A program made the position numbers and the translations under genes. Shown piece after piece: positions 23,944 to 42,713 of a stretch of DNA of 64,000 nucleotides. Source of the stretch: Phytoactinopolyspora halotolerans (GTDB lineage: Bacteria; Actinomycetota; Actinomycetes; Jiangellales; Jiangellaceae). The DNA is taken from positions 1 through 64,000 of the forward strand of contig NZ_JAAGOA010000026.1 of the NCBI RefSeq assembly GCF_010550675.1, written 5' to 3'. Every line of letters starts with the position of its first letter. Position 1 is the first letter of the stretch. Under the pieces are notes generated by a model. It was given only the letters and a program-made list of their open reading frames with translations, was not told the DNA's origin and did not search any database.

Positions 23944-25137
23944 CTAGCCGTTCTGCAGAGACCTGAATGACTCGAGCCAGAACCCGGGAGCGGCCATCCC
24001 GGACCCGCGCGACGCGACTGTGTAGGGCGCGAAGACGCTGTTGAGCAGCCACGGATCCTTGTTCGGGCTCCAGTTCCGGACCATCAGGTTGTCCTGTTTG
24101 AAGCCGTAGGTGGCGACGGCGAGCCGGCCGGTCTCCCGATACATCGCCATCTGGTCATGCAGGAACGTGGCCTGCTCCATGAACCACGCGCTGCTGGTGA
24201 GGAAATCGTGCCATTGCCGCTCGCTGAACGGCTCCTCGATCGCGGCGCCGATCACCTCCCAGACCTGGGTGTCGGTGTGGAATCCGTACTTCTGGGCGAA
24301 CTCGGGCGAGATCGTGTCCTGCAGATGCTGTTTCCAGTACCAGACCAGCGAGAACTCGGTGACGAGGAAGGTCTGGTCGGCGCGCATCCGCGGAAGGATG
24401 TAGTCCAGGAACGCCTGCACATTGTCGCCATCAGGGACGTGCGGGTGAATGTCCACGCCTTCGATCTCCGGCGTCTCCCGGACGAACCGCATCCAGCGCT
24501 CGGTTGCCGGCGTCCGGCGGTTCTCCAGATCGAGCCGGTTCAACGCCCCCATGTAGAGCGTTGTCGCGCAGTTTTGGCCGCACTGCTCGGCACGGTGGTC
24601 GATCACGTGCCGGGCCACGGTCTCGTAGAACTCGTTGAGCCGGTGGTCGCGCTCTGCCGGCAGGCTTTCGATGAACGGCTCGTTGCCGATCGTGATGATG
24701 TCGACCTTCCCCATGACGGTCGGCAGGACCTGATCCAGCCGGTCCAGTTCGGCGTCCATCTCCGCGCTGCCGGGTTCAGGGAACGATGCGTTGTTGTAGG
24801 GGAACTTCAGACTCAGGATGGTGTCGTATCCGCGCTCGGATGCGTCCGTGATCGTGTCGATGGCGAAATGGTCGGCCGGATCGCCGTCGTCCGTGGCGGG
24901 CATGGGGAAGAACCCGCGGACCCATTGTGCGCGGGCCAGCTGTAACTCCCGGTAGTCCAGTGCGTCGAGATTCTGGTTGAAGTTCGCGCCGAGCGCGCCC
25001 TGAGCGTGGTCGAGGGGTTTGCCGATGCTGGTGTCGTCCTCCTTGTTAAGGGATGGGTCGCCGTACGCGGCGAGATGGGGCATGGCCAGGGCGGCTACGG
25101 CCACGGTCGTGGCGGTTATCGATAGACGACGCGACAT
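23944..25137 (-). CDS. Secreted clan GH-A-like glycoside hydrolase, copy 1
   Basis: A 397-residue protein with a signal peptide (MSRRLSITATTVAVAALAMP, predicted cut near LAA-YG). The rest reads as a TIM barrel. IITIGNEPFIES (E153) is the NEP acid/base motif of clan GH-A, and FLVTEFSLVWYW (E261) fits the strand-7 nucleophile. HPHVPDGDN and ASFPEPGS are other loop motifs. I cannot place it in a numbered GH family. It is 80 percent or so similar by eye to the next gene, a tandem duplicate. It sits at the end of a LacI-controlled glycan locus. The GTG at 25146 and ATG at 25143 are alternative starts. Confidence 0.65.
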   Translation of the reverse strand: MSRRLSITATTVAVAALAMPHLAAYGDPSLNKEDDTSIGKPLDHAQGALGANFNQNLDALDYRELQLARAQWVRGFFPMPATDDGDPADHFAIDTITDASERGYDTILSLKFPYNNASFPEPGSAEMDAELDRLDQVLPTVMGKVDIITIGNEPFIESLPAERDHRLNEFYETVARHVIDHRAEQCGQNCATTLYMGALNRLDLENRRTPATERWMRFVRETPEIEGVDIHPHVPDGDNVQAFLDYILPRMRADQTFLVTEFSLVWYWKQHLQDTISPEFAQKYGFHTDTQVWEVIGAAIEEPFSERQWHDFLTSSAWFMEQATFLHDQMAMYRETGRLAVATYGFKQDNLMVRNWSPNKDPWLLNSVFAPYTVASRGSGMAAPGFWLESFRSLQNG

Positions 25138-25271: not shown

Positions 25272-26444
25272 CTAGACGTTCTGCAGCGATCTGAAAGCGT
25301 CCAGCCAGTACCCGGGAGCGGCCATGCCGGAGTCGCGGGACTGGGCCGTGTAGGGGGCGAACACGCTGTTGAACAGCCACGGATCCTTGTCCGGCCCCAT
25401 GTTCGTGGTCATGTCTTCCTGCTGCCTGAATCCATAGGTGGCGACCGCGAGCCGGCCGGTGTCCCGGTACAGCCTCATCTGTTCCTGCAGAAACCCGGAC
25501 TGCTGCATGAACCAGTCACAGCTGGTCAGAAAGTCGTGCCACTGATGTTCACGGAACGGATCGTCGATCGCGGCCTGGACCACCTCCCAGATCTTCGTGT
25601 CCGGAGCGAAGCCGTATGTCGAGGCGAAGCCGGCCGAGACGGTGTCGCTCATGTGCTGCTTCCAATACCAGACCAGCGAGAACTCGGTGACGAGGAAGGT
25701 CTGCCCGGCGCGCATCCGCGGAAGGATGTAGTCGACGAACGGCCGTGCGTTCTCGCTGCCGGGGATGTGCGGATGGATGCTCACGCCTTCGATCTCCGGC
25801 GTCTCGCGGACGAACGTCATCCAGCGTTCCGCTGCCGGCGTGCGGTTGTCCTCCAGATCGAGCCGGTTGAGCGCGCCCATGTAGAGCGTCGTCGCGCAAT
25901 TCTCGCCGCAGTGCTCGGCGCGGTGGTCGATCACGTGCCGGGCCACGGTCTCGTAGAACTCGTTGAGTCTATGATCCCGCTCTGCCGGCAGGCTCTCGAT
26001 GAACGGCTCGTTGCCGATCATGATGATGTCGACCCTGCCCATGACGGCAGGAAGGACCCGGTCCAGCCGGTCCAGTTCGGCGGCCGCCGCTTCGCTGCCT
26101 GGTTCGGGGAACGATGCGTTGTTGTAGGGGAACTTCAGGGTCAGGATCGTGTGGTACCCGCGCCGAGCGGCGTCCAGGATGCCGGCGATACCAACGTGCT
26201 CGGCGGGATCGACGTCGTCGACCTCCGGCATCGGCAAGAAACCGCGGACCCACTGCGCGCCCGCCAGCTGTAGCTCCCGGTAGTTCACCGCGCCGAGGTT
26301 CTCGTTGAAGTTCGCGCCCAGGGCGCCGTGAGCGGTATCGAGAGGTCTGCCCATGCTGGAGTGATCCTCCTCATCGAGGGATGGTGCGCCGTACCTGTGG
26401 CGCGGGAGATCATCGAGGCGACGGTGTCCGTGCCATCGATCCAC
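25272..26444 (-). CDS. Clan GH-A-like glycoside hydrolase, copy 2, without a signal peptide
   Basis: A paralogue of the downstream gene over its whole length, including IIMIGNEPFIES and FLVTEFSLVWYW, so both candidate catalytic Glu are kept. Homology starts at RYGAPSLDEED, but the residues before it (MDRWHGHRRLDDLPRH) are not a signal peptide. In copy 1 the same position follows a hydrophobic leader. Comparison of the two DNA stretches suggests a frame change just upstream of the GGTACGGC segment. Translation could start at GTG 26444 or at ATG 26354 (GAGGAGG upstream). The enzyme may stay in the cytoplasm or be a decaying copy. Confidence 0.6.
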   Translation of the reverse strand: MDRWHGHRRLDDLPRHRYGAPSLDEEDHSSMGRPLDTAHGALGANFNENLGAVNYRELQLAGAQWVRGFLPMPEVDDVDPAEHVGIAGILDAARRGYHTILTLKFPYNNASFPEPGSEAAAAELDRLDRVLPAVMGRVDIIMIGNEPFIESLPAERDHRLNEFYETVARHVIDHRAEHCGENCATTLYMGALNRLDLEDNRTPAAERWMTFVRETPEIEGVSIHPHIPGSENARPFVDYILPRMRAGQTFLVTEFSLVWYWKQHMSDTVSAGFASTYGFAPDTKIWEVVQAAIDDPFREHQWHDFLTSCDWFMQQSGFLQEQMRLYRDTGRLAVATYGFRQQEDMTTNMGPDKDPWLFNSVFAPYTAQSRDSGMAAPGYWLDAFRSLQNV

Positions 26445-26451
26445 GACACCA

Positions 26452-26479
26452 TGTTTGCGCTAACTTGGCTTTGCGTCAA
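26452..26479 (-). promoter_or_regulatory. LacI-type operator upstream of GH-A copy 2
   Basis: On the minus strand GTTAGCGCAAACATG (core 26452-26464) is identical over 14 bases to the operator at 29255. A TTGACG (complement of 26474-26479) lies just upstream, preceded by the same CGGGTC as at the other site. TTAGCGCAAA is a LacI-type near-palindrome centred on CG. Confidence 0.7.
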
Positions 26480-26517
26480 GACCCGAAGGGCTCAGTGCTC
26501 GGTCAATGCGCCCCGGA

Positions 26518-27555
26518 TCAGCGGCGCGGCGGCGCCGTGGAGGAGCGAACCACCAGCTCAGGATGGACCAGGCGGCTGGCCGCCGGGGCCGGCGGAGCCC
26601 CGGCGGGTGTCTCGATCATGGCGAGCAGATGATCGAGACACCGGCTACCGACGGCGCCCAGGTCTTGGCGGACCGTCGTCAGCGGCGGCGAGAAATACGG
26701 CGTGATGTCGAGGTCGTCGTACCCGACCACGCTCAGATCCTCCGGCACCCTGCGCGCGAGCTCCTCAGCGGCACGGAGGACACCGGCGGCCATCTGATCG
26801 TTGGCGGCGAAGACGGCGGTGGTGGTCTCGTCGGACAGGAGTTGACGCGCGGCTTGATAGCCCGATTCCGGAGACCAGTCGCCCACCACAGGCTGCGGTA
26901 CCGGTCGGCCGGCTCGCTGCAGCATCCGCTTCCAGGCTGCCCGGCGGCGTTCCGCCGGATTGGATCCGGGAGGCCCGGCCACGTGGTGGACCGTCCGGTG
27001 CCCGAGCTCGAGGAGGTGGCCGACCGCGGCGCGTGCGCCGGCCGCCTCGTCCATGCCGAACGTCGGATGCTCGTGCGTCGACCTGCTGTCCGCGATGACG
27101 ACGGGCACCTCCTCGGGCAGCTGGAGGTGCGGCGTGTCGAGGACGCGCGCCTCGATCACGATCACGCCGTCGACGGCGCGGTCGGTGAGTCCGCGGACGG
27201 CGGCACGGACGTCCTGCTCGGTGGGTGTGTCCACCACGGCCAGGCTCACCGAGTATCCGCTGGCCTGCGCGCCGGCGATCACCGACTCGACGATGCGGAT
27301 GTTGCCCACGGCAGTGAGGTTGAAGGTCACCACACCGATCGTCGCGAACTTGCCCGTGGCCAGGGCTCTGGCGGCGACGTTGGCGCGATAGCCGAGCTGT
27401 CTCATCGCCGCCTCGACCTTGTTCCGCGTCTCGGCCGTCACCCGGGTGTTCCCATTCGCCACCCGGGAGACGGTCTGGCCGGAGACGCCGGCGAGCCTGG
27501 CGACGTCCGCCATCGACGCCCCCTTGGACGCCCGCGTGCCTGGTCGTCGAGTCAC
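26518..27555 (-). CDS. LacI-family repressor of the glycan locus
   Basis: A 345-residue regulator. The HTH reads MADVARLAGVSGQTVSRVAN with the hinge helix AMRQLGYRANVAARALATGK, then a type I periplasmic-binding fold (FATIGVV, VDGVIVIEA, TAVFAANDQMAAGVL, LSVVGYDDL). I place the start at GTG 27555, fourteen residues before the HTH, with GGAGAGGAG upstream. A longer open frame to 27708 lacks a ribosome site and would overlap the sulfatase. It lies between the GH-A pair and the sulfatase. Three matching LacI-type operators occur at promoters of this locus, so it is probably their repressor. Confidence 0.9.
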   Translation of the reverse strand: MTRRPGTRASKGASMADVARLAGVSGQTVSRVANGNTRVTAETRNKVEAAMRQLGYRANVAARALATGKFATIGVVTFNLTAVGNIRIVESVIAGAQASGYSVSLAVVDTPTEQDVRAAVRGLTDRAVDGVIVIEARVLDTPHLQLPEEVPVVIADSRSTHEHPTFGMDEAAGARAAVGHLLELGHRTVHHVAGPPGSNPAERRRAAWKRMLQRAGRPVPQPVVGDWSPESGYQAARQLLSDETTTAVFAANDQMAAGVLRAAEELARRVPEDLSVVGYDDLDITPYFSPPLTTVRQDLGAVGSRCLDHLLAMIETPAGAPPAPAASRLVHPELVVRSSTAPPRR

Positions 27556-27623
27556 GCTGCGCGGTCTCCTCTCCTTGGCCGGCTGTCGCTGAGCACACGA
27601 GCATTCTGCCGTGCCGCGACGGT

Positions 27624-29123
27624 TCACGCCTGGTGGTGTACGCCCTCGAAATCGCTCAGCGACGTGTCGTAGTCCTTGCCGCCGACCTGATACATCGAGG
27701 TCATCCAATGGTGGAAGTTGTCCCCGGATGCCCGGAGCCGCTCGTAGAGCCGATGCAGCAGATCGACGCGGATCTCGTTCAGCTGGGGATCGTCGTAGCG
27801 ATTGGTCAATTCGTGTGGGTCATCCTGCAGATCGTAGAGCTCGTTGACGCTCTCCGGGTTGACCACCAGCTTGTAGCGTCGCGTGCGCAGCATGCGCTGC
27901 GGGTACGGGAAGTGGTGGCCGTGGAACTCGGCGGTGATGTCATCGCGCCAGTCCGCCGGCTCGTCGCCGGTGGCCAGTGGCACCAGGCTGCGGCCGTCGG
28001 CGTCCGGGTCGGGATCGATGCCGGCGAGATCGAGGATCGTGGCAGTGTAATCGACCAGGCTCACGAAGGCGCCCGTCGAGTGGCCTCCGGGTGAACCCGG
28101 CACCCGTAGCAGGCCGGGAATCCGGTAGATGTCGTCGTACATCGCCGGACCCTTGTCGTGCAGCCGGTGTGAGCCGGTGAACTCGCCGTGGTCGGCCGTG
28201 AACGCGACGGCGGTGGAGTCCCACAGGTCGAGGCGGCGCAACGCGTCGAGCAGGCGGCCGACCTGCTGATCGATGAGCGTGGTGTAACCCCAGTACGCCG
28301 CGATCAGCCAGCGCCAGGTGTCCTCGCCGAGCGTGTCGTACGTCCAGTGCTCCGAGTAGCGGCGCTGTACCAGCGGCTTGTTCTCGAACGTCTCCGCCAG
28401 CGACGGCGGGAGCTCGACATCCTCCGGCGAGTACATCTCCAGGTACTCGCGGGGAAGCAGGTACGGCAGGTGCGGTCCGTAGAAGTGTGTGGCCATGAAG
28501 AAGGGCCGGCCGTCGCGATGGTGGTCCCGGGCGTACTGCTCTAGTCGCTCGATGGTCCGGTCGGTCAGGAAATGCTCGAACGTCGCCTCGGCCGGCTGGT
28601 GGACGACGCCGGCCAGCAGGTTGCCCGGCTCGCCGTTCGGGAACACGCCGCGGACCTCGTCGCTGATCGTCGGCGACGGGAAGCCCTGGCGGGCGAGCCA
28701 TGCCCGGTAATCCGGATGTCCGATCGGGTTGTGCCAGCCCGGGTAGTGAGCACCGTCGAATCCGAAGTCACCGGGGCCGCGATTCTTGCCGACATGCCAT
28801 TTGCCCTCGATGCCGACGTTGTAGCCGACCTCGCGTAGCCGCCGGGAGAACGGGGTGAACTCGTCGGAGAGCTCCTCGGCATAACCCACGTTCCGTTCGT
28901 AGTTCGCCAGCAGGCGGTGGCGGAACGGCATGACGCCGGTGAGGAGGCTGGCGCGGGCAGGGGTGCAGATGGCGGACGGAGTGAAGCACGCATTGAAGCG
29001 GGTGCCCGAAGCGGCGAGCGCATCCAGGTGAGGTGTCCAGACGTGTGGATTGCCGTAGCACCCCAGCGTATCGGTCCGGTGCTGGTCGGTCATCAGGAAC
29101 AGCATGTTCGTCGGCGAACTCAT
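27624..29123 (-). CDS. Type I sulfatase (formylglycine-dependent), copy 1
   Basis: A 499-residue alkaline-phosphatase-fold sulfatase. MLFLMTDQHRTDTLGCYGNP supplies the metal aspartates. The formylglycine signature is CTPARAS (C53), in the C-x-P-x-R form matured by a formylglycine-generating enzyme. GKWHVGKN and FTADHGEFTGSHRLHDKGP are the other metal and sulfate motifs. No signal peptide is evident, so it may act on imported oligosaccharides. I start at ATG 29123 with GGAGGG upstream; the longer frame to 29189 runs across the LacI operator. It is divergent from the ABC importer. Confidence 0.88.
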   Translation of the reverse strand: MSSPTNMLFLMTDQHRTDTLGCYGNPHVWTPHLDALAASGTRFNACFTPSAICTPARASLLTGVMPFRHRLLANYERNVGYAEELSDEFTPFSRRLREVGYNVGIEGKWHVGKNRGPGDFGFDGAHYPGWHNPIGHPDYRAWLARQGFPSPTISDEVRGVFPNGEPGNLLAGVVHQPAEATFEHFLTDRTIERLEQYARDHHRDGRPFFMATHFYGPHLPYLLPREYLEMYSPEDVELPPSLAETFENKPLVQRRYSEHWTYDTLGEDTWRWLIAAYWGYTTLIDQQVGRLLDALRRLDLWDSTAVAFTADHGEFTGSHRLHDKGPAMYDDIYRIPGLLRVPGSPGGHSTGAFVSLVDYTATILDLAGIDPDPDADGRSLVPLATGDEPADWRDDITAEFHGHHFPYPQRMLRTRRYKLVVNPESVNELYDLQDDPHELTNRYDDPQLNEIRVDLLHRLYERLRASGDNFHHWMTSMYQVGGKDYDTSLSDFEGVHHQA

Positions 29124-29138
29124 AGACCCTCCGATCGT

Positions 29139-29152
29139 GTTATCGCAAACAT
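29139..29152 (-). promoter_or_regulatory. LacI-type operator upstream of the sulfatase
   Basis: GTTATCGCAAACAT on the plus strand differs by one base from the 14-mer found at the other two sites. It lies 16 bases upstream of the sulfatase start, next to its ribosome site. Confidence 0.6.
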
Positions 29153-29228
29153 ATCTTCTTCCAGGTCGTAGCGCGAATAGCGAGGCCACATTGGTTTCTG
29201 GTCCTGATAGTCCACATCTCTTCGGGTC

Positions 29229-29268
29229 TTGACGGCAGCCTGGAACGGTCGTAGGTTAGCGCAAACAT
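29229..29268 (+). promoter_or_regulatory. Promoter and LacI-type operator of the ABC importer operon
   Basis: TTGACG (29229-29234) and TAGGTT (29252-29257) are 17 bases apart and form a good sigma-70 promoter. GTTAGCGCAAACAT (29255-29268) overlaps the -10 box and the expected transcription start, which is a repressing position. The 100-base leader to the ATG at 29373 has no other feature I can support. Confidence 0.72.
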
Positions 29269-29372: not shown

Positions 29373-30914
29373 ATGGGGCAGCATCACCGAATTCTTGGAA
29401 CCCGTCACGGGGCTGCGCGCGTCGGACGTGACATCAGCCGACGCAGGTTCATCGGTGGTTCGAGCGCCGGTGTGCTGGCGGCCGTCCTTGCAAGTTGCAC
29501 CGGGGGCGGCCAGTCGAGTGAAGAGAACGCGGCGGCCGGCGGAGAATCCAGCGGGCCCGGCGGGCCGCTGCAATGGTGGGATCAGTTCCGGCCGTTGACC
29601 GAAATGTTCGAGCGGGACCTCTTCGGCCCGTACATGGAGGAGCACCCGGACGTTACCATCGAGCGTCGTCAGATGGATGCGCCCGACCTGGGCCAGGCGC
29701 TGCAGGTCGGCCGGCGGAGCAGCCAGCTGCCCGATGTCCATTCCGTCGCCGGCCTCGGCAGCTCACCCGCGGCGTTGGTCAGCGAGGGATGGTTCCAGCC
29801 GATCGGAAGTCATGCGGACTTCGAGGGCAGCCCGGTGGCCGATCAGATCTTCGACGGCATCCACCGGTTCGACGGGGAGATCTACTCCTTCGCGCCCTTC
29901 TCCGGCCGCCGGCACGAGGCGGCGCCGTGGTTGAACACGGAGCTACTGGCTGAGGCCGACGTCGACCCGGAGCAGAGTCCAGCCACGTGGGACGACTTCC
30001 GCGCCGCGGCCCGTCGTGTCCAAGACGGTACCGGGGACGGCGTGCACGGCGTCTTGATCCCGACTCAGGACCCGATCTATCTGGATGCGCTGGTGCACCG
30101 GCTCGCCACGGCCGCCGGCGCACCTGGCCCGGGTGCCATCGATTGGGCGACCGGGGACTACATCCATGACTCGCAGCCGTACCTGGACGCCGTCGAGTTC
30201 CTCGTCTCATTGCAGGCCGACGGTGTGGTCCATCCCGCGTCCGCCTCCATGGGTCCGCGCGACGCCCGGGCCCGATGGGCCGCCGGCGAGGCCGCCATTT
30301 ATCCGTGGGGGCCCTGGTTCATCGGCGGCCTGCTGGTGGAGGAGCCGGAGGCGGTGGAGCGCGGCGTCGGCGTGTGGCACGTCCCCACGCCCGAGACCAC
30401 TCGCAACTTCGTGTACTCCAGCCCGGCTCCCGGCGTGTTCTGGGTGTCCAGCGAGTCGGACCAGCCGGAGTTGGCCGCAGACCTCCTCCTGCAGATGACG
30501 ACGCGGGAGTTCCAGGCCAAGCTGGCCGCCGCGATGGACCAGCCTCCCGCGCTGCTCGATGTGGTGGCGGAGGCGGACGTACACCCCACCTACGCGCAGA
30601 ACGTGTCCTTCTTCGAAGAGGACGTCCGGATCGGACCGGTGCCGGAGGTGGCCACACCGGGTGTGTGGCGGGTGCTCGCCGAGATGCGCGACATCCACCC
30701 CAACCTCGGTGAGATCGTCCAGGCCGTGCTGACCGGTTCGACCGACGACGTCGCCGGCGACCTGAGGCGATACAAGGACGAGCTGAGCGCCGAGCGAGAG
30801 CGTGCCCTGGAGGTCGTCCAAGGCGAGGGGGTCGAGGTCGACCTCGACGCGTGGGTCTTCTCCAACTGGGACCCCGCCACGGATTACGACCAGCAGGCCT
30901 ACGCCGAGCGCTGA
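29373..30914 (+). CDS. Sugar ABC importer: Tat-type substrate-binding lipoprotein
   Basis: A 513-residue extracellular solute-binding protein. The leader has a twin-arginine motif (SRRRFIGGSSAGVLAAVLAS) ending in a lipobox Cys (LASC), so it is probably exported folded and lipid-anchored. The mature part has the cluster B fold used for oligosaccharides, with Trp-rich regions (PLQWWDQF, WAAGEAAIYPWGPWFI) that could stack on sugars. AGGAG precedes the ATG. It heads an operon with two permeases and no dedicated ATPase; such importers normally share an MsiK-type ATPase encoded elsewhere. Confidence 0.88.
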   Translation: MGQHHRILGTRHGAARVGRDISRRRFIGGSSAGVLAAVLASCTGGGQSSEENAAAGGESSGPGGPLQWWDQFRPLTEMFERDLFGPYMEEHPDVTIERRQMDAPDLGQALQVGRRSSQLPDVHSVAGLGSSPAALVSEGWFQPIGSHADFEGSPVADQIFDGIHRFDGEIYSFAPFSGRRHEAAPWLNTELLAEADVDPEQSPATWDDFRAAARRVQDGTGDGVHGVLIPTQDPIYLDALVHRLATAAGAPGPGAIDWATGDYIHDSQPYLDAVEFLVSLQADGVVHPASASMGPRDARARWAAGEAAIYPWGPWFIGGLLVEEPEAVERGVGVWHVPTPETTRNFVYSSPAPGVFWVSSESDQPELAADLLLQMTTREFQAKLAAAMDQPPALLDVVAEADVHPTYAQNVSFFEEDVRIGPVPEVATPGVWRVLAEMRDIHPNLGEIVQAVLTGSTDDVAGDLRRYKDELSAERERALEVVQGEGVEVDLDAWVFSNWDPATDYDQQAYAER

Positions 30915-30919
30915 CCACG

Positions 30920-31885
30920 ATGGCGACGATTCAACAGCCGAGCCGCACCACACCGCCGGGTCCGCTTCCACAGCGCCGGGGACGGCTGCGCCGCATCCGC
31001 CAGGACTGGTGGATCTACCTCTTCCTGCTGCCCACCATTCTCGGCTACGGCGCCTACACCGTCTATCCGCTGGTGGCCTCGTGGTGGTACGCGTTCCTCG
31101 ACTGGCCGGGGTTCGCGGCGACCGGAACGTTCGTCGGCATCGAGAACTTCGAACGCCTGCTGGAAGACGACCTGTTCTGGAACGCGTTCTGGAACTCGAT
31201 CGTCTTCCTCGTGGTAGCTGTGCCGCTCCGCGTGGGGCTGGCGTTGGCCCTGGCGTTGGTGCTGAACCGGGCGAAGACGCCGTTCAAGGGGTTCTTCCGT
31301 ACGTTGTTCTTCCTGCCCGTCGTCACCACCGGCGCCATCATCGGCATCGTGTTCACGCTGCTGCTCGACGCCGGAGGCCCGGTCAGCCTGGCCATGGTCA
31401 AGTCCGGGCTGCTCGACTCGCCCGCCAACTTCGTCGCGGATCCCGACACCTCGCTCTACGCCGGGATCGCGGTCTGGGTGTGGAAGTGGCTGGGCATCAC
31501 CATGATCTACTGGCTCGCCGCCCTCCAGACCATTCCGCGGGATGTGCACGAGGCCGCCATGATCGACGGCGCCGGCGGCTGGCGGGAATTCCGGCACGTG
31601 ACGCTGCCGCTGCTGGTGCCGTTCCTGGTCATCATCACCCTGATCGACACGGTGGCGGCGCTCAACGTCTTCGACCTGATGCAGACCCTCACCGGTGGCG
31701 GCCCGTCGTTCTCCTCCGAGGTGATCGAGATCTTCATCTTCCGCACGGCCTTCCAGGCCACCGTCCCTGAGCTCGGCTACGCTTCGGCCGCGGCGGTGCT
31801 GTTCGGACTGCTGACGATGGCCATCGCCGTCGTCCAGGCTCTCGGCTTCCGCTGGGCTCGGCGCCAGATGGGAGGGGCACGATGA
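30920..31885 (+). CDS. Sugar ABC importer permease 1 (MalF-type)
   Basis: A 321-residue MalF/UgpA-type permease with six membrane segments (WIYLFLLPTILGYGAYTVYP, TLFFLPVVTTGAIIGIVFTL and others). The EAA loop reads EAAMIDGAGGWREFRHVTLP and would dock the shared ATPase. It starts five bases after the binding-protein stop and overlaps the next permease by four bases, so translation is coupled. Confidence 0.92.
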   Translation: MATIQQPSRTTPPGPLPQRRGRLRRIRQDWWIYLFLLPTILGYGAYTVYPLVASWWYAFLDWPGFAATGTFVGIENFERLLEDDLFWNAFWNSIVFLVVAVPLRVGLALALALVLNRAKTPFKGFFRTLFFLPVVTTGAIIGIVFTLLLDAGGPVSLAMVKSGLLDSPANFVADPDTSLYAGIAVWVWKWLGITMIYWLAALQTIPRDVHEAAMIDGAGGWREFRHVTLPLLVPFLVIITLIDTVAALNVFDLMQTLTGGGPSFSSEVIEIFIFRTAFQATVPELGYASAAAVLFGLLTMAIAVVQALGFRWARRQMGGAR

Positions 31886-32796
31886 CGCCTCCGCGCATCG
31901 AGACCGCACCCGAGTCCGGCCGCGGCCTGGCCGCGCCTCCAGCTCAGAAGCGCTCGTCGCGATTCCTGCGCCGTCCGCGCCCGGGGCAGACCATGGTGTT
32001 CGTCGGGCTGCTGGTGCTGGCGGGACTGTGGATCTACCCGTTCATCTGGCTGGTCTCGGCGTCGCTGAAATCGTCGTCGGAGATCTTCGGCCGCGGGCTC
32101 AACCTGTTCCCGGAGGACCCGGTCTGGGAGAACTACAGCCAAGCCTGGACCGAGGTCGGCTTCGACAGGTACTTCCTCAACAGTGTGCTCATCACCGGCG
32201 GCACCGTCCTGCTGATCGTGATCCGCAGTGCCCTCGCCGGGTACGTGCTGGGCAGGTTCGACTTCATCGGCAAGAAGCCGCTGATCGCCGTCTTCCTGAT
32301 CACCTTCTTCCTGCCCGAGGGTTACACGATCATCCCGATCACCCAGTTGACCGACCAGCTCGGGCTGCTCAACACCCACCTCGGTGTGATCCTGGGTCTC
32401 GGCGCCGGGGGACAGATCGCCTCGACCCTGCTGTACGCGGGCTACTTCCGGCAGCTGCCGAAGGAGTTGGAGGAGTGCGCACGCCTGGACGGGGCCGGAC
32501 ACTTCAGGATCTTCTTCCAGGTGATGTTCCCGCTCGCCTGGCCGATCACCGCCACCGTGACCATCCTGACGTTCCTGTTCGCCTGGAACACCTACCTGCT
32601 GCCGTTGGTCTTCACGCTCAGCGAGCCCGGTCTGCGGACGCTCGCGGTCGGCATGACCGTGTTCGTCGGCGAATACGACACCGACTGGTCCGGGATGGCC
32701 GCCGCCGCGGTCATCTCGCTGCTGCCGGTGATCGCCGTCTTCGTCGTCCTGCAGCGGAAGTTCGTGGACAGCATCGCCGGAGCCGTGAAGCAATGA
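31882..32796 (+). CDS. Sugar ABC importer permease 2 (MalG-type)
   Basis: A 304-residue MalG-type permease: about 35 Pro/Arg-rich residues, then six membrane segments. The EAA loop reads EECARLDGAGHFRIFFQVMF. FAWNTYLLPLVFTL is the family's penultimate-helix motif. It pairs with the upstream permease as a heterodimeric channel and is followed after 37 bases by the arabinofuranosidase, likely in the same operon. Confidence 0.92.
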   Translation: MTPPRIETAPESGRGLAAPPAQKRSSRFLRRPRPGQTMVFVGLLVLAGLWIYPFIWLVSASLKSSSEIFGRGLNLFPEDPVWENYSQAWTEVGFDRYFLNSVLITGGTVLLIVIRSALAGYVLGRFDFIGKKPLIAVFLITFFLPEGYTIIPITQLTDQLGLLNTHLGVILGLGAGGQIASTLLYAGYFRQLPKELEECARLDGAGHFRIFFQVMFPLAWPITATVTILTFLFAWNTYLLPLVFTLSEPGLRTLAVGMTVFVGEYDTDWSGMAAAAVISLLPVIAVFVVLQRKFVDSIAGAVKQ

Positions 32797-32833
32797 CCGG
32801 AACAACCGCATGACTGGATTGGAGCCTTCTCAC

Positions 32834-34489
32834 ATGCCTGACCCCCACCATCAGGACCGTGCCGCCGGCCGGGAGGCGGTCGTGACCGTCGACACTCGCC
32901 ACCCGGTCGGGAAGGTCGAAGACGACATCTACGGCCACTTCCTGGAGTCCGCCTTCTTCGGCAACATCGAGGGCGGGGTGTTCGACGAGGGCTCGCCGCT
33001 GTCCGTTCAGGAGCCCGGTCACCTGAACGGTATCCGCGCCGACGTGCTGGAACTCTGCCGGGAGCTGCAGCCCGGCGCCATCCGCTGGCCCGGCGGCAAT
33101 TTCGCCTCGCCGTACCACTGGATGGACGGCATAGGCCCACGCGACGAGCGTCCGACCCGGCTCGAGCTCGCCTGGGGAGAGCTGGAGACCAACCGGTTCG
33201 GCACCGACGAGTTCCTGGCCTGGTGCGAGGCGGTGGGCGCGGATCCGTACCTGGTTCACTCCGCCCGCGACGTCGACGAGGCGGTGCGCTGGGTGGAATA
33301 CACCAATTCCGCCCGGGAGACGACGCTGGCGCGGCGACGTGCCGAGAACGGGCGCGCCGAGCCGTGGAAGGTCAAGTACTGGGGCGTGGGCAACGAGGTC
33401 TACGGCCGGTGGCAGATGGGCCACCGCAGCGCCGAACAGTACGCCGCGGATGCCCTTGAGCACGCCCGCTTCATGCGCGCCGTGGACCCCGACATCAGAC
33501 TGATCGGCGTCGGCTTCCACCAACGCCAGGATTGGACCGAAGAAGTGGTCGCACAGGTCGGCCGGTTTCTGGACTACCTGTCCATCCACCTGTACGGGGC
33601 GAGCACCCGGCTGTGGACGGGGGACGACTACGACGACGTGGTCGCGCAGGCGCTCTACTTCGAACAGGAACTCAACACGTATTCTCAGCTGGTCACCGAG
33701 ATCGCCACGAGCGCCGGGCTGGACCGTCCGCCGGCCCTGACGCTCGACGAGTGGACGATGCGACACCTCGAGCCCGCGGACTGGCCGCAGCCACAACCCG
33801 GCGATGACGGCGGCGTCGCACCCCGCGAGACACCCGAGCCGAACGGGCCTGTGGACCGTTTCCGGGTCAACCGATACAGCCCGCGGACCATCGCTGACGC
33901 GGTCTTCTGCGCCGGAGTGTTCCACGCCATCCACCGCACGGCTGGTCGTCCTGCCCCGGTGTCGATGGCCAATCCGGTGAACCTGGTCAACGCCAACGGC
34001 CTGGTGGTCGCCCGTCCCAAGGGGGCGCTGCGGTCGGCGATCTACCACGTCTGGCATCTGTACCGGCATCACACCGGCCGGACGGTGTTGCCCAGCGAGG
34101 TGGACGGCCCGGCGCGGTCGACGACGGTCACCCGGGGCGACGAGCGGGACCGTACCGGCCGCCACGTCTCCACGCCGATGACGGTGCCGTATGTCGACGT
34201 GTGCGCCACTCGCGCCGACGACGGGTCGGTGCGCCTCGCCGTCGTGAACCGGCATCGTGACGAGACGGTGCGGGTGCGGCCTGTGTTCGACGGTGCCGCG
34301 GACTCCACGCCGGGGCGAGCGCACGTCCGTACGCTCGGCGGCGACATCCCCGACCTGTACGCGGTCAACGATCTGAGCGCGCCGGATACCATCGGCGTCC
34401 GCGACCTCGGAGAGGTGGAGGCGACCGGCGGCGCCTGGGTGCTGCCGCCGCACTCGGTGACGGTGCTGACACTGGGAGGCGAGGCGTGA
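32834..34489 (+). CDS. Alpha-L-arabinofuranosidase (GH51-type)
   Basis: A 551-residue intracellular enzyme that releases terminal arabinofuranose. The family motifs are IYGHFLESAFFGNIEGGVFD, IRWPGGNFASPYHW, WGVGNEVYGRWQMGH with the acid/base Glu (E188) and LTLDEWTMRHLEP with the nucleophile (E306). The C-terminal part is the usual beta sandwich. There is no signal peptide, so it would act on imported oligosaccharides. I chose ATG 32834, which has GGAG upstream; an ATG at 32810 is in frame without a clear site. It lies just after the importer genes. Confidence 0.9.
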   Translation: MPDPHHQDRAAGREAVVTVDTRHPVGKVEDDIYGHFLESAFFGNIEGGVFDEGSPLSVQEPGHLNGIRADVLELCRELQPGAIRWPGGNFASPYHWMDGIGPRDERPTRLELAWGELETNRFGTDEFLAWCEAVGADPYLVHSARDVDEAVRWVEYTNSARETTLARRRAENGRAEPWKVKYWGVGNEVYGRWQMGHRSAEQYAADALEHARFMRAVDPDIRLIGVGFHQRQDWTEEVVAQVGRFLDYLSIHLYGASTRLWTGDDYDDVVAQALYFEQELNTYSQLVTEIATSAGLDRPPALTLDEWTMRHLEPADWPQPQPGDDGGVAPRETPEPNGPVDRFRVNRYSPRTIADAVFCAGVFHAIHRTAGRPAPVSMANPVNLVNANGLVVARPKGALRSAIYHVWHLYRHHTGRTVLPSEVDGPARSTTVTRGDERDRTGRHVSTPMTVPYVDVCATRADDGSVRLAVVNRHRDETVRVRPVFDGAADSTPGRAHVRTLGGDIPDLYAVNDLSAPDTIGVRDLGEVEATGGAWVLPPHSVTVLTLGGEA

Positions 34490-34526: not shown

Positions 34527-35966
34527 ATGAGCCTCCCCAACATCCTGCTGATCTGCACTGACCAGCAGCGGTTCGACGCCGTCGGCGCGTATGGGAACCC
34601 GGACATCGCGACGCCGAACCTGGACCGCCTGGCCGAGCAGGGCGTGCTGTTCGAGAACTGCTACGTGCAGAACCCGGTGTGCGGACCGTCCCGAGCGAGC
34701 CTGATGACGGGGCGGTACGTCCCGTCGCACGGGCTGTACGCCAACGGCGTCGACCTGGAGCCGCACGAGGTGTTGTTCAGTCGGCTGTTGGCCGAGTCCG
34801 GCTACGACTGCGGGCTGGTCGGGAAGTTCCATCTGGGCGCCTGCCAAGGGGGCCGGTCCGAGCCACGGCTGGACGACGGCTTCCGGGTCTTCCGATGGGC
34901 GCACGACCCGTACCCGGGGTCGTCGGAGAACGCCTATCATCGCTGGCTGAAGGCGCGCTTCCCGGATCTGCACGAGGCGGTGGTGCGTCGCGACGGCCCG
35001 TACACCTGGGACACACTGCCGACCGAGGCGCACTACAGCCACTGGATCGGGGAGGAGACCGTCGACTTCCTCAGCTCCTCCCGGGAGCTGGACAAGCCGT
35101 TCTTCTTCGTCGCCAACTTCTTCGATCCGCACCACGGGTTCGGTGCGCCGGAGGAGTATGCGCGGCGCTACGATCCGGCGGCGCTGCCGCGGCCGGTCAC
35201 CCGCGACGGTGAGCTGGACGGCAAGCCGCCCATCTTCACCGAGGCGTCCAAGGTCTCCTACGGCGGGGCCGCCCGTGGCTACGTGGACTACACCGAGGAC
35301 GAGTTGATGGAGGTCCGGCAGGCGTACTACGCCATGGTCTCCCTCGTCGACGACGAGGTCGGCCGGATCCTGGACGCACTGGATGAGACCGGCCAGGCCG
35401 ACAACACGATCGTGGTGTTCACCAGTGATCATGGCGAGATGCTCGGCGACCATCAGCTGATGCTGAAGGGCCCGTTCATGTACGAATGTGCGGTCCGGGT
35501 GCCGCTGATCGTGCGCTGGCCGGGTGTCACCGAGCCGGGGAGCCGCCGTACCGAGCTGGTGCAGTGGATCGACCTCGCGCCGACGTTCCTGCAGGCCGCG
35601 GGGGTGGAGGTCCCGCAGCGGATGCAGGGTGAGAGCCTGCTGAAGCTGATCCGCGACGACGACGCGACGGGCTGGCGGGACTGGGCACTGTGCCACTACC
35701 GGAACAGTGGGCACCCATACGATCCCGCGGTCCACGTGACGATGCTGCGCCACGATCGCTGGAAGCTCGTCGTCCATCACGGCGCGCCGGCCAGCGCGCG
35801 CGGGCGCACCGGGGAACTGTACGACCTGGAGACCGACCCGAGCGAACTGACCAACCTCTGGCACGAGGACGCACACCGGGACATCCGCCACGAGCTGCAA
35901 GAGATGTTGATCGACGTCATGGTCGCCGTCGAGGACCGCGGCAATCCCCGGTTGGCGAATTGGTGA
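34527..35966 (+). CDS. Type I sulfatase (formylglycine-dependent), copy 2
   Basis: A 479-residue sulfatase. ILLICTDQQRFDAVGAYGNP supplies metal ligands, the formylglycine signature is CGPSRAS (C52), and GLVGKFHLG and VVFTSDHGEMLGDHQLMLKG are the remaining active-site motifs. It is not a duplicate of the first sulfatase: the two belong to different subfamilies by their signature regions (CTPAR versus CGPSR) and loops, so they probably remove sulfate from different positions. No signal peptide. The stop overlaps a GTG that could start the GH2 gene. Confidence 0.9.
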   Translation: MSLPNILLICTDQQRFDAVGAYGNPDIATPNLDRLAEQGVLFENCYVQNPVCGPSRASLMTGRYVPSHGLYANGVDLEPHEVLFSRLLAESGYDCGLVGKFHLGACQGGRSEPRLDDGFRVFRWAHDPYPGSSENAYHRWLKARFPDLHEAVVRRDGPYTWDTLPTEAHYSHWIGEETVDFLSSSRELDKPFFFVANFFDPHHGFGAPEEYARRYDPAALPRPVTRDGELDGKPPIFTEASKVSYGGAARGYVDYTEDELMEVRQAYYAMVSLVDDEVGRILDALDETGQADNTIVVFTSDHGEMLGDHQLMLKGPFMYECAVRVPLIVRWPGVTEPGSRRTELVQWIDLAPTFLQAAGVEVPQRMQGESLLKLIRDDDATGWRDWALCHYRNSGHPYDPAVHVTMLRHDRWKLVVHHGAPASARGRTGELYDLETDPSELTNLWHEDAHRDIRHELQEMLIDVMVAVEDRGNPRLANW

Positions 35967-36019
35967 CCACGCCCGTCCGAACGACACATAGAACCACTGC
36001 GAAGCACGAGAGGGAATCC

Positions 36020-37852
36020 GTGACGATCGACTCCGAGTATCCCCGTCCGTTGCTGGTCCGTTCGGCCTGGCAGGACTTGTCCGGTGCGTGGGGATTCGCG
36101 ACGGACGAGAAGGACGCCGGCCGGTCGAGCGGCTGGCACCACGATCCCACCCCGTTCACCCGTACGATCACCGTGCCGTATCCGCCGGAGAGCGAGTTGT
36201 CCGGGGTGCACGACCGGGACTGCCCAGCGGTGGTGTGGTACCGCCGCGACGTGCGCCTGAACCGGGCGCCGGGACCGGACGAGCGGCTTCTGCTGCACTT
36301 CGGCGCGGTCGACTACCAGGCACATGTGTGGTTCAACGGGGTGCACGTCGGTGAGCACGAGGGCGGTCACACGCCGTTCACGCTGGACGTGACCGACGCC
36401 GTCGTCGTCGGTGAGGAGCAGGTCGTCGTCGTCCGTGCCGAGGATGAGCGCGACGACGCGACCCAGCCGCGCGGTAAACAGGACTGGCGCGACGAGCCGC
36501 ACGCCGTCTGGTATCACCGGACCACCGGGATCTGGCAACCGGTCTGGGCGGAGGTGGTGCCGGCGCTGCACGTGCGACGGTTGCACTGGATGCCGGACGT
36601 GCCCGCCGCCGCGGTGACGCTTGAGGTGGAGCTGTCCCGCCGGCCGGAGACCGCCGTCGACGTGCACGTCGTTCTCAATCTGGGCGACGAGGTGCTGACG
36701 GACCAGACGTTCCGTGCTACACAGCGAGACAGTCGATGGACGATCTCCGTCCCCGCCGCCCGGCATCAGTTGGAGCAAGCCCGGCTGTTGTGGAGCCCGG
36801 AGACGCCGACGCTGCTGGATGCGCGCGTCGAGCTACTCGATGGCGGCTGTCGCGTGGACGCGGTCTCGTCCTACGTCGGCATGCGCAGCGTCGGGATCAA
36901 AGATGGGCGGTTCCTGCTCAACGGGCAGCCGCGTTTCTTGCGGATGGTGTTGGCGCAGAATTACTGGCCGGACTCGCATCTGGCCGCGCCGTCTGCCGAC
37001 GCGCTGCGCCGCGACGTGGAACTGGCCAAGGAACTCGGGTTCGACGGCGTCCGGATCCATCAGAAGATCGAGGATCCGCGATTCCTGGCCTGGTGCGACC
37101 GGCTCGGCATGCTGGTGTGGAGCGAGCTGCCCAGCGCCTACGAGTACGCGCCGCGGACGGTCGAGCGGCTGACCCGGGAGTGGCTGGAGAACGTGGCGCG
37201 GGACCGTAGTCATCCGTGCGTGGTGACGTGGGTTCCGTTCAACGAGAGCTGGGGCGTCTGGCACGGCCTGGACGTCGCGGAGCAGCGGCACGCCACCACC
37301 GCGCTGTACCACCTGACCAAGGCGCTGGACGGCACCCGGCCGGTGATCTCCAACGACGGATGGGAACACACCGAGAGCGACATCTGGGGTCTGCACGATT
37401 ATGCGCCGACGGGAGAGTCGATCCGCCGCCGCTACGCCGACCGGGACGGGATCGCCCGCATCCTCGGGGACCGTCCTCCGGCCCGGCGCACCGCGTTGCT
37501 CGGCGATCCGGTCCACCGGGGGCAACCCGTCATGCTGACGGAGATCGGCGGGCTCAGCCTTCGGCCGCGGGCCGAGGAGGCGTGGCACGGGTATGGCACG
37601 GTCGGCTCGGTCGAGGAGCTGGCCGAGGGGTTTCGAGGGCTGGTGGATGCGGTACTCGACAGCCCCGAGCTGGCCGGCTTCTGCTGGACCCAGTTGACCG
37701 ACACCGAGCAGGAGCGGAACGGTCTGCTCACCGAAGACCGCGAGCCTAAGCTCCCGGCGGAGGTGGTCCGGAGCATCGTCGCCCGGCCCGCCCGGTCGGT
37801 ACCTGCCGAGGCGATCGACGCCGCGCGCCGGGCGGCCAGAGCCCCCGGCTGA
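36020..37852 (+). CDS. GH2-family glycoside hydrolase
   Basis: A 610-residue enzyme with the GH2 order: N-terminal sugar-binding jelly roll (VWYRRDVRLNRAP, HVWFNGVHVGEHEGGHTPFT), immunoglobulin-like domain, and TIM barrel. The acid/base is in VPFNESWGVW (E409) and the nucleophile in VMLTEIGGLSL (E508). GH2 includes beta-galactosidase, beta-glucuronidase and beta-mannosidase; context favours a galactosidase or arabinosidase-type activity, unproven. I use GTG 36020 (GAGAGGGAA upstream). GTG 35963 overlaps the sulfatase stop (GTGA) and would add 19 residues. No signal peptide. Confidence 0.87.
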   Translation: MTIDSEYPRPLLVRSAWQDLSGAWGFATDEKDAGRSSGWHHDPTPFTRTITVPYPPESELSGVHDRDCPAVVWYRRDVRLNRAPGPDERLLLHFGAVDYQAHVWFNGVHVGEHEGGHTPFTLDVTDAVVVGEEQVVVVRAEDERDDATQPRGKQDWRDEPHAVWYHRTTGIWQPVWAEVVPALHVRRLHWMPDVPAAAVTLEVELSRRPETAVDVHVVLNLGDEVLTDQTFRATQRDSRWTISVPAARHQLEQARLLWSPETPTLLDARVELLDGGCRVDAVSSYVGMRSVGIKDGRFLLNGQPRFLRMVLAQNYWPDSHLAAPSADALRRDVELAKELGFDGVRIHQKIEDPRFLAWCDRLGMLVWSELPSAYEYAPRTVERLTREWLENVARDRSHPCVVTWVPFNESWGVWHGLDVAEQRHATTALYHLTKALDGTRPVISNDGWEHTESDIWGLHDYAPTGESIRRRYADRDGIARILGDRPPARRTALLGDPVHRGQPVMLTEIGGLSLRPRAEEAWHGYGTVGSVEELAEGFRGLVDAVLDSPELAGFCWTQLTDTEQERNGLLTEDREPKLPAEVVRSIVARPARSVPAEAIDAARRAARAPG

Positions 37853-38059: not shown

Positions 38060-39475
38060 CTACGGCTTGAGGACGATCAGCTTCTGCCGGACCATCCCCT
38101 CGACCGCGTACTTCACGCCCTCGGTCCCCTGGCCGGATTCCTTCACGCCGCCATAAGGCATGTGGTCGGCGCGGAACGACGGGGGCATGTTGACGAGCAC
38201 GCTGCCAGCCTGCGCCTGCTGTGCGTAGCGCATCGCGGTGCCGAGGTTGGACGTGTAGATGCTGGTGTTGAGTCCGTAACGGCTGGCGTTGACCGCGGCG
38301 ATCGCGTCGTCCAGCGTGGCCACCTCCACGACGGTGATCACCGGTCCGAACACCTCGTCGCAGACCAGCCGATCGTCCGCGGCCGCGCCGACGACGACGG
38401 TGGGTGCGACGACGCCGTCCATCTCGGTGCCGCCGGCCACCACCCGCGCGCCGCGATCCTGGGCGTCTTGGACCCAGGCCAGCACTCGCTTGGTGTCGTC
38501 GTCGGTGATCAACGGCCCCACGACGGTGCCCGGGTCGGTCGGATCGCCGAACGGGACATCGGCCACCGCATGCGCGAGCCGGCCGACGAACTCCTCCGCG
38601 ACGTCAGCGTGCACGTAGACGCGCTGCAGCGAGACGCAGGCCTGCCCGGAGTTGGCGAACCCGCCGGTGACCGCGTCCGCGACCGCCCGCTCCAGGTCGG
38701 CTTCAGCGTCGACGACCATGGCGGCGTTCGAGCCGAGCTCGAGGACGTGTTCCTTGCGCGGAGACTGAGCCTTCAGCTGCCAGCCGACCCGCGAGGACCC
38801 GGTGAACGTGACGACCTCCACCCGCGGATCATCCTGCCAGGCGCCGACGACGGCCGGAGCGTCACCCGTGACCAGATTCAGCCAGCCCGCCGGCAGCCCG
38901 GCCTCGACGAACGCCTCGACCATCAGCCCCGCCGTCATCGGCGCCCGGTCCGACGGTTTGAGGACCACCGGGCAGCCGGCCGCGAGCGTGGGCCCGACCT
39001 TGTGTGCGACGAGATTCAGCGGGAAGTTAAACGGTGTGATCGCGGCGACGATGCCCCGCGGCTCCGACCGGGTGAACGCGAACGTGCCGGCGGCGGCGTC
39101 GACCGCGTCCAGCGGAACGGCCTCACCGGGCAGCCGCGTGGCCTCCTCGGAGGAGAGCCGGAAGGTGAACACGGCCCGCGCGACCTCGGTGCGCGCCGCG
39201 CTGATCGGCTTGCCGGTCTCGGCGCGGATCATCTCGGCGAACACATCCGCCCGTGATTCGACGAGGCCCGCGACGGTCCGCAGGATCTCCGCCCGGCGGC
39301 TGACCGGGATCGGTTGGGTGAAGGCGTGCGCCGCTGCGTCGACCGCGCGCGTCGCCTCCGGCGCTCCGGCCTCCGCGACCCGACCGATGTCCGCTCCGGT
39401 CCATCGGTCCACGATGGTACGGCTCTCCGGTGCGGGAACCCAGGTGCCGTCGATGAACAGGTCTTGCTGCCGCAT
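38060..39475 (-). CDS. NAD(P)-dependent aldehyde dehydrogenase
   Basis: A 471-residue ALDH superfamily enzyme. The catalytic Cys is in FANSGQACVSLQRV and the general-base Glu in HVLELGSNAAMVV; ITPFNFPLNLVAHK and FTGSSRVGW are the cofactor-binding motifs. It resembles the succinate-semialdehyde, lactaldehyde and glycolaldehyde branch, which also contains sulfolactaldehyde dehydrogenases. It is the last gene of a four-gene operon with an aldolase, a DeoR repressor and a hydroxyacid dehydrogenase. The aldolase product is therefore a good guess for its substrate. Confidence 0.88.
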   Translation of the reverse strand: MRQQDLFIDGTWVPAPESRTIVDRWTGADIGRVAEAGAPEATRAVDAAAHAFTQPIPVSRRAEILRTVAGLVESRADVFAEMIRAETGKPISAARTEVARAVFTFRLSSEEATRLPGEAVPLDAVDAAAGTFAFTRSEPRGIVAAITPFNFPLNLVAHKVGPTLAAGCPVVLKPSDRAPMTAGLMVEAFVEAGLPAGWLNLVTGDAPAVVGAWQDDPRVEVVTFTGSSRVGWQLKAQSPRKEHVLELGSNAAMVVDAEADLERAVADAVTGGFANSGQACVSLQRVYVHADVAEEFVGRLAHAVADVPFGDPTDPGTVVGPLITDDDTKRVLAWVQDAQDRGARVVAGGTEMDGVVAPTVVVGAAADDRLVCDEVFGPVITVVEVATLDDAIAAVNASRYGLNTSIYTSNLGTAMRYAQQAQAGSVLVNMPPSFRADHMPYGGVKESGQGTEGVKYAVEGMVRQKLIVLKP

Positions 39476-39487
39476 CTCGATGTCTCC

Positions 39488-40600
39488 CTAGCTGAGCGTG
39501 GTGCTGCCGGCGGACACGGTGGATCCGGTGGCGGTGAACTCTTCTGCCCGGCCGTCGATCTCCGTCAGCACCGCACGGGTGAACTCGGCGGTCGTCGCGG
39601 TTCCGCCCAGGTCCGGGGTGGAGATGCCGCCCGCCAGCACGGCCTCGAAGGATGCCTGCAGGTGGTGGGCCGCGTCGGCATGGCCGAGGTGGTCGAGCAT
39701 CATCACCACCGACCAGATCTGCCCGACCGGGTTGGCCACGCCCTTCCCGGCGATGTCCGGGGCGGAACCGTGCACCGGCTCGAACAGCGACGGATAACGG
39801 CGCTCCGGATTGAGGTTGGCGCTCGGGGCGACACCGATCGAACCGGTGAGGGCACTGCCGAGGTCGGAGAGGATGTCGCCGAAGAGGTTGGAGGCGACCA
39901 CCACGTCGAACGTCCACGGCTTGAGCGCCATCTTGGCGGCGAGCGCGTCGACCAGCACGGGTTCCAGCTCGACTCCGCCGACGTCGGCGACGGTCTCGGC
40001 GACGACCTCGTCCCAGAACGGCATGGTGTGCACGATCCCGTTGCTTTTGGTCGCCGACGTCACCAGCCCGCGTCGGCCGCGGGCGAGCTCGGCGGCGAAC
40101 CGGGCCGCACGCGCGACGCCCTGACGGGTGAAGATGGCCTCCTGGATGGCGGTCTCGTTCTCCCGCCCGCGGTACATCCGGCCGCCGACCTCGGAGTACT
40201 CGCCCTCGTTGTTCTCCCGCACAATGACGAAGTCGATCGGCTCGGTGGTGGACAGGGGACCTGTGACACCGGCCAGGGTGCGCACCGGGCGCAGGTTGAT
40301 GTACTGCTCGAAGCCCCGACGGATCGGGATCAGCAGCCCCCAGAGCGTCTCCGTGTCTGGAATGTCCGGCACGCCGACCGCGCCGAGCAGCACGGCGTCG
40401 TGCGCGGCCAAGGTCTCCAGGCCGTCGACCGGCATCATCCGGCCGTGCGCCCGGAAGTACTCCGACCCCCAGGGATAGCCCACCAGGTCGAAGGTGAGCC
40501 CGTGGGCGGAGGCGACCGCATGCAGGCAGTCCAGCGCGGCCGGCACCACCTCGGTGCCGATCCCGTCCCCGGCGATGACCGCGATGCTCTGCTGTGTCAC
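39488..40600 (-). CDS. Tartrate/D-malate/isopropylmalate-type decarboxylating dehydrogenase
   Basis: A 370-residue member of the isocitrate/isopropylmalate dehydrogenase superfamily. VIAGDGIGTEVVPAALDCL opens it, REN-NEGEYSEVGG is the substrate loop typical of tartrate/D-malate enzymes (rather than LeuB), and VDALAAKMALKPWTFDVVV and NLFGDILSDLGSALTG carry the metal aspartates. It starts at GTG 40600 and overlaps the DeoR stop by four bases. It oxidises a 2-hydroxyacid with a 3-carboxylate or similar group; the true substrate here is unknown. Confidence 0.85.
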   Translation of the reverse strand: MTQQSIAVIAGDGIGTEVVPAALDCLHAVASAHGLTFDLVGYPWGSEYFRAHGRMMPVDGLETLAAHDAVLLGAVGVPDIPDTETLWGLLIPIRRGFEQYINLRPVRTLAGVTGPLSTTEPIDFVIVRENNEGEYSEVGGRMYRGRENETAIQEAIFTRQGVARAARFAAELARGRRGLVTSATKSNGIVHTMPFWDEVVAETVADVGGVELEPVLVDALAAKMALKPWTFDVVVASNLFGDILSDLGSALTGSIGVAPSANLNPERRYPSLFEPVHGSAPDIAGKGVANPVGQIWSVVMMLDHLGHADAAHHLQASFEAVLAGGISTPDLGGTATTAEFTRAVLTEIDGRAEEFTATGSTVSAGSTTLS

Positions 40601-42353: not shown

Positions 42354-42713
42354 CTCATCCCTCGGGCGAATCCGATACAGCACGCGGGCGTCACCGCTGC
42401 ATGTTTATACTTTCACACTGATGTTGGAAAAACAACGCCGTACCTGTGGGCATATGAACATCGCACGCGTGTGTCGGGTCGGGCGCGAGTTATGGGTCCG
42501 TGGATGGCGGCCAGACACGGTAGGGGCGAACCGCGGCGCGACGACGGATGTTTCCGCTGGTGTACTCAGGCGCCTCGACATTCCGACCCGAGACGGCGTC
42601 ATTTTCCGGAAGCAGCGCGATGACGCGGCTTTCGGGCAAGGCAGACGCGAAGCATGCGCGGTCTGGCGTCGAGGCTCCGCCCGGTGTCCGGCGTGGTCAG
42701 GCGTCCGGCCTGG
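42354..42713. other. Leader and promoter region of the aldolase operon
   Basis: On the minus strand a TATAAA box lies at about 42400-42405 and the small inverted repeat GTTG-N6-CAAC (42424-42437) lies about 20 bases upstream of it; either could be part of a DeoR-controlled promoter. The remaining 270 bases to the next gene hold no frame or RNA I can support. Confidence 0.35.

Follow-up and report, generated by a model that had tools for sequence, protein, structure and literature searches.

We conclude that a LacI-family protein of Phytoactinopolyspora halotolerans, encoded at 26518..27555 (minus strand) of the window, that is, of the whole 64,000-nucleotide stretch of DNA that we analysed, very probably acts as a local repressor that would block RNA polymerase at the promoters of an arabinofuranose-glycan system. 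The protein (345 aa) has a helix-turn-helix domain (PF00356, 64.9 bits) and a sugar-binding domain (PF13377, 127.6 bits), both over the cut-off, which places it in the LacI family. All 20 NCBIfam matches listed for named LacI subfamilies (PurR, RbsR, CcpA, GalR and others) scored below their curated cut-offs, the best among them being PRK09526 with 269.5 against a cut-off of 340. The helix-turn-helix segment VSGQTVSRV was identical across the four orthologs aligned. E. coli LacI has a C-terminal tetramerisation tail; the window LacI, with its 345 residues, appears to have no room for a tail of that style and is probably of dimeric type. Without inducer, a dimer of this protein would bind CG-centred near-palindromes (ATGTTTGCGCTAAC) lying on the core promoter and thus block RNA polymerase. 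The inducer is probably an oligosaccharide that contains arabinose and enters through the importer of the same system.

Three sites in the window are predicted to be bound by this protein. The exact 14-mer GTTAGCGCAAACAT was found at 26451..26464 (minus strand), before the gene for GH-A copy 2 (25272..26354, minus), and again at 29255..29268 (plus strand), in the promoter of the importer operon, where it overlaps the -10 box. The third site, GTTATCGCAAACAT at 29139..29152 (plus strand), differs from the 14-mer by one mismatch, reads ATGTTTGCGATAAC towards sulfatase 1, and is located 15 bp upstream of the sulfatase 1 start codon (ATG), at a distance of 116 bp to the importer operator. Our pattern scan thus confirmed the two exact sites and the one changed site that a preliminary description had reported, and the earlier coordinates and gene calls (LacI at 26518-27555, sulfatase 1 at 27624-29123, the importer from 29373) also stand. 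The operator is a CG-centred near-palindrome with the halves ATGTTTGC and GCTAACTT, in which two of the eight pairs are mismatched. Because the scan found no separate operator for GH-A copy 1 (23944..25137, minus) in the window, we read this gene as co-transcribed with GH-A copy 2. Phytoactinopolyspora endophytica has a two-mismatch site for GH-A copy 1 (L134:12431).

The preliminary description had proposed a search of the whole genome with the 14-mer. In the 7.3 Mb of this genome we found five sites with at most one mismatch, versus none for a reversed-pattern control, and all five stand before related genes, three in the window and two before a GH43 gene unlinked to it. At two mismatches there were 12 sites versus 4 in the reversed control, so that sites this loose are unreliable on their own, and seven such matches elsewhere in the genome (on C2, C3, C9, twice on C16, C23 and C31) were not counted as members. 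Within the window alone, three allowed mismatches gave five matches against a mean of 1.86, a weak result as 5 of 100 shuffles reached five; we therefore relied on sites with at most one mismatch, on whole genomes and on relatives.

To find relatives, a species-genome collection was scanned with two peptide patterns taken from four orthologs. This gave 13 loci, 12 of which encode an orthologous LacI (72-85% identity); the remaining one, from a Planctomycetota MAG (29%), was dropped. The 12 ortholog loci belong to one Phytoactinopolyspora (P. endophytica, contig NZ_ML142854.1), one Haloactinopolyspora, one Streptosporangium, eight Nonomuraea and one Candidatus Ruania. A site with at most two mismatches was present in all 12 loci in the promoter of the hydrolase gene beside lacI, and likewise in all 12 in the divergent importer-side promoter. 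The hydrolase beside lacI is a GH-A protein in 11 of the 12 loci and a GH43 ortholog (70%) in Candidatus Ruania (L141), and an importer gene was detected at 11 of the 12, the exception being Nonomuraea montanisoli (L142).

We also determined whether the exact motif follows the regulator in a class-wide sample of 393 genomes, where a close LacI ortholog was defined as the window's own protein or one at least 78% identical. Such an ortholog was found in four genomes; 13 more passed the search threshold with 51-55% relatives only. The exact 14-mer occurred in 4/4 of these genomes, P. halotolerans itself among them, but in only 3/389 of those lacking a close ortholog, and the reversed control gave none among the rows listed. 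These numbers bear on the possibility that the sites belong mainly to a paralogous LacI-family regulator encoded elsewhere, with a different target for the adjacent LacI. Binding by a paralog is conceivable, as LacI-like matches number 75 in the genome (a count in which some entries are fragments of a single gene), and related palindromes, GTTAGCGCTAACA(T), are located upstream of other genes in several of these genomes. Besides the tracking of the ortholog by the exact motif, however, the site flanks the lacI ortholog gene in 13 of 13 loci, and the SGQT recognition helix was absent from all 10 helix-turn-helix segments read among 29 other paralog loci. Taking both sides, we regard the paralog as a very improbable owner of the sites and the adjacent LacI as the very likely one.

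As for the three genomes that carry the exact motif without a close ortholog, one is an AT-rich genome in which the site has no recognised target; in another, the exact site and the symmetric GTTAGCGCTAACAT form a tandem upstream of a gene of the arabinofuranosidase B type (PF09206); and in the last, the exact site precedes a GH30-like gene. Other actinobacterial regulators that act on glycan genes thus seem to rely on operators of a related sequence. The adjoining GTTAGCGCAAACAT and GTTAGCGCTAACAT of the tandem (L196:1499-1529) point to a related LacI motif family.

The 13 ortholog genomes contain 22 exact sites, 21 of them preceding an importer, a GH-A or a GH43 gene. Among these targets are two unlinked GH-A genes (G398:C600 and G403:C25; 61% and 66% identity to copy 1) to which the motif alone had led. 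The 22nd site (G398:C600:28899) keeps the GH-A promoter flank CGATCAAG, lacks TTGAC and a recognised target, and is perhaps a relic. The one-mismatch motif is less private than the exact one: 22 of its 34 sites in these genomes are outside the regulon, 16 being the symmetric GTTAGCGCTAACAT and 6 other variants, and the other 12 are at lacI or GH43 loci. We treated the outside sites as chance occurrences or as sites of other LacIs. Four of the six non-symmetric ones were inspected (L110, L111, L192, L193); they lie within or next to genes that do not resemble the reference set. The one inspected of the 16 symmetric ones (L113) is located where a gene next to ABC-permease-like genes starts. Among the results of a search across the order were two symmetric one-mismatch sites and one variant (L099, L102 and L097), which we treated likewise. 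In Nonomuraea sp. MG754425, 68 bp separate an unlinked operator-bearing GH-A gene from a downstream open reading frame of NPP1 type (necrosis-inducing) on the same strand (L190:8655-10764), hinting at a plant-derived substrate.

The GH43 gene of P. halotolerans has two sites, C63:238681 (minus) and C63:238774 (plus), 93 bp apart and together spanning C63:238681-238787 (L013). Its product has a signal-peptide-like start and is endo-arabinanase-like (PF04616, 164.2 bits); against the NCBIfam model AbnA it scored 135.5 bits, below the cut-off of 480. Orthologs of at least 70% identity were present in 3 of the 13 ortholog genomes, and all three have the site (with two mismatches in L141), while the GH43 relatives of 39-45% identity were absent from the exact-motif matches in these 13 genomes. 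The P. endophytica ortholog has two sites 200 bp apart, the distal one with two mismatches. In both Phytoactinopolyspora an extra, auxiliary site is located upstream of the -35 box of the GH43 gene. Some 3.5 kb past the operator-bearing GH43 gene of P. endophytica, on the opposite strand, there are a second copy of sulfatase 2 and an arabinofuranosidase copy, the latter split in two open reading frames (L109:15388-18719). The regulon is therefore larger than the three transcription units first proposed, with the unlinked GH43 gene here and an unlinked GH-A gene in each of two Nonomuraea.

The position of the sites relative to the promoter elements was analyzed next. The -35 box TTGACG of the GH-A2 promoter (26474..26479, minus) is part of CGGGTCTTGACG, which had been described as common to the DNA upstream of both exact sites. 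It is indeed present at both, but its distance to the operator differs (9 vs 20 bp), and relatives keep only its TTGAC and not CGGGTC. At the importer promoter, TTGACG (29229..29234, plus) ends 20 bp before the operator, and the operator-overlapping TAGGTT (29252-29257, plus) is therefore a -10 box with 17-bp spacing. At the GH-A2 promoter TTGACG ends 9 bp before the operator, which puts the operator's own last six bases, AAACAT, at the same 17-bp spacing; they are likely to be the -10 element, a weak one by sigma-70 standards. The site would thus begin inside the -10 box at the importer promoter (TTGACG-17-TAGGTT, with GTT shared), whereas at the GH-A and GH43 promoters it would fill the spacer and its end AAACAT would serve as the -10. 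All 13 importer-side promoters (the window and the 12 ortholog loci) have 20 bp between TTGAC and the operator, and all 17 hydrolase promoters (13 at lacI loci, window included, and 4 unlinked) have 9 or 10 bp. The registers are offset from each other by 10-11 bp, roughly one turn of the helix.

Because the sites overlap -10 boxes, the repeats could be conserved promoter elements and not operators, or else remnants of gene duplication, given that GH-A2 and GH-A1 are duplicates and flanks can be copied. Yet the site is common to the promoters of unrelated genes (importer, GH-A and GH43), in two registers and with diverged DNA around it. Moreover, a 21-kb slice of the window together with the 12 ortholog loci contained 28 sites with at most one mismatch in 270,407 bases, and 20 first-order Markov simulations gave none. 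We thus consider it very unlikely that the repeats are anything other than operators. In all 30 promoters compared, the main site is downstream of the -35 box, on the spacer or the -10 box, which fits steric repression; sites overlapping the -10 or -35 box were likewise taken as repressive in a study of bifidobacterial regulons (PMC5928203). Simple occlusion leaves the role of the extra upstream GH43 site unexplained, and this site in both Phytoactinopolyspora would suit an activator or a dual regulator; dual action is what PMC5928203 predicts for AraQ, another actinobacterial LacI-family protein. Against this stands the downstream position of the main site in every promoter compared, and we give activation or dual action very little chance relative to simple repression by the window LacI.

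The sulfatase-side site is the weakest part of the regulon. With up to two mismatches, a second site was found in 7 of the 13 divergent regions and was missing in 6; Streptosporangium (L135) has sulfatase 1 beside the locus and lacks the second site. The suggestion that LacI represses all three units is thus supported by footprinting, by the co-occurrence of motif and ortholog and by core-promoter position, but its sulfatase side is the least conserved. As lacI is probably part of the sulfatase 1 unit, the site at 29139 would be autoregulatory, and this third site probably gives autoregulation of the regulator. In the seven regions the distance to the importer site was 116, 116, 117, 117, 115, 112 and 118 bp, i.e. 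115-118 bp in six of the seven. When three mismatches were allowed, 10 of 13 regions had a second site, the three additional ones at 98, 118 and 71 bp (the last in L144); about 0.1 such sites are expected by chance in the 4.2 kb of these regions (from 1.86 per 64 kb). Outside the promoter, the spacers of different genera align about like shuffled ones, a few pairs slightly better (L144 left out). Since the distance is kept although the spacer is poorly conserved, the data suggest a constraint, such as a loop or a cooperative contact that spans about 11 turns. The distances depart from perfect helical phasing (112, 98 and 71 bp in the divergent regions, 93 and 200 bp in the GH43 pairs). A further reading, that the dimeric-type LacI closes an 11-turn repression loop from the importer operator to the sulfatase/lacI operator and so governs a partly sulfated, arabinan-like glycan pathway built around a GH-A hydrolase without Pfam or NCBIfam model, is tentative and in our view rather unlikely. 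The E. coli gal operators OE and OI, looped by GalR, are similar in that two operators about 11 helical turns apart share one regulatory region; there, however, both serve one transcription unit, whereas the window sites serve divergent units and their loop is putative.

The genes predicted to be under this control encode an importer and several glycan-active enzymes. The importer operon (plus strand) comprises the genes for the ABC solute-binding protein (29373..30914), permease 1 (30920..31885), permease 2 (31882..32796), a GH51-type alpha-L-arabinofuranosidase-like enzyme (32810..34489), sulfatase 2 (34527..35966) and, probably as its last gene, a GH2-type hydrolase (35984..37852; start uncertain). 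The GH51-type enzyme scored 265.7 bits against NCBIfam ArfA, below the cut-off of 625, and the relatives of solved structure bear the name arabinofuranosidase or arabinosidase. Type I formylglycine sulfatases have the active-site motif C-X-P-X-R, and both PF00884 proteins carry it: CTPAR at position 53 in sulfatase 1 (27624..29123, minus), the gene of which is upstream of lacI, and CGPSR at position 52 in sulfatase 2.

Clan GH-A enzymes are (beta/alpha)8 barrels with glutamates at the ends of strands 4 and 7. The model of GH-A copy 1 (mean pLDDT 72.4) is a TIM barrel with eight strands, in which E153 (GNEP) follows the fourth and E261 (TEFS) the seventh, placing the protein in this clan; the GNEP and TEF glutamates were invariant in 14 sequences. 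Neither copy had a Pfam or NCBIfam match above cut-off. Among the matches listed, the model gave Z scores of 17.5-20.0 with beta-glucosidase, GH5, GH164 and GH10 chains, and Foldseek also returned tRNA-guanine transglycosylase barrels. Because the fold matches are spread over several glycosidase families and sequence named none, we claim no family for the two copies. Copy 1 keeps a signal-peptide-like N-terminus. In copy 2 the open frame runs to 26444, and the likely start is ATG 26354 behind AGGAGG, without a signal peptide; in both Phytoactinopolyspora (25272-26444 and L134:11094-12362) the signal peptide of copy 2 is seemingly lost, its remnant being eroded or out of frame, and an internal ATG follows an SD-like stretch rich in purines. 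It is possible that the copies became a cytoplasmic and secreted pair after duplication.

Because sulfatase genes differ among the loci, sulfate removal appears to be an option added to a core that is an arabinofuranose-glycan system, and we infer that the substrate is an arabinofuranose-containing, sometimes sulfated glycan. Sulfated arabinogalactan is described as a nutrient of Bacteroides plebeius (PMC8406133). Beside the regulon, on the minus strand at 38060-42383, there is a cluster encoding an aldehyde dehydrogenase, a tartrate-dehydrogenase-type enzyme (TIGR02089, above cut-off), a DeoR regulator and a DeoC/LacD-type aldolase, possibly a sugar-acid or sulfosugar pathway; the window pattern scan gave no operator match within it.

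CG-centred even palindromes are usual in the LacI family, and so is autoregulation, reported for 72% of the transcription factors studied (PMC4052901). The window regulon resembles the local sugar-utilisation regulons described there in its CG-centred near-palindrome, promoter position, apparent autoregulation and sugar-utilisation targets. Relative to those regulons, its own features are the clan GH-A hydrolase without Pfam model, the GH51-, GH43- and GH2-like enzymes, the sulfatases, the unlinked targets and the strictly fixed promoter registers. The bifidobacterial BauR and AraQ regulons for arabino-oligosaccharides and arabinose (PMC5928203) likewise show LacI-family control of arabinofuranosidase, transporter or arabinose genes, with repression also inferred from overlap with -10 or -35 boxes; the available text mentions neither a sulfatase nor such a GH-A hydrolase, and the likeness is one of description. 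A literature search by title and abstract start, which included the sequence strings TGTTAGCGCTAACA, TTAGCGCAAAC, GTTAGCGCTAAC and TTAGCGCTAA and had most subscription journals outside its coverage, found no work on this regulon. The regulon is new; the kind of bacterial sugar switch is ordinary and already known.

These results provide a regulon, supported by footprinting, for a glycan system of Phytoactinopolyspora, Haloactinopolyspora, Nonomuraea and their relatives, to which a GH43 gene and GH-A genes at unlinked positions are now tied. Because their spacing is kept, looping between the divergent sites is simple to test, and the GH-A proteins, a family lacking a Pfam or NCBIfam model, are nominated for a substrate test.
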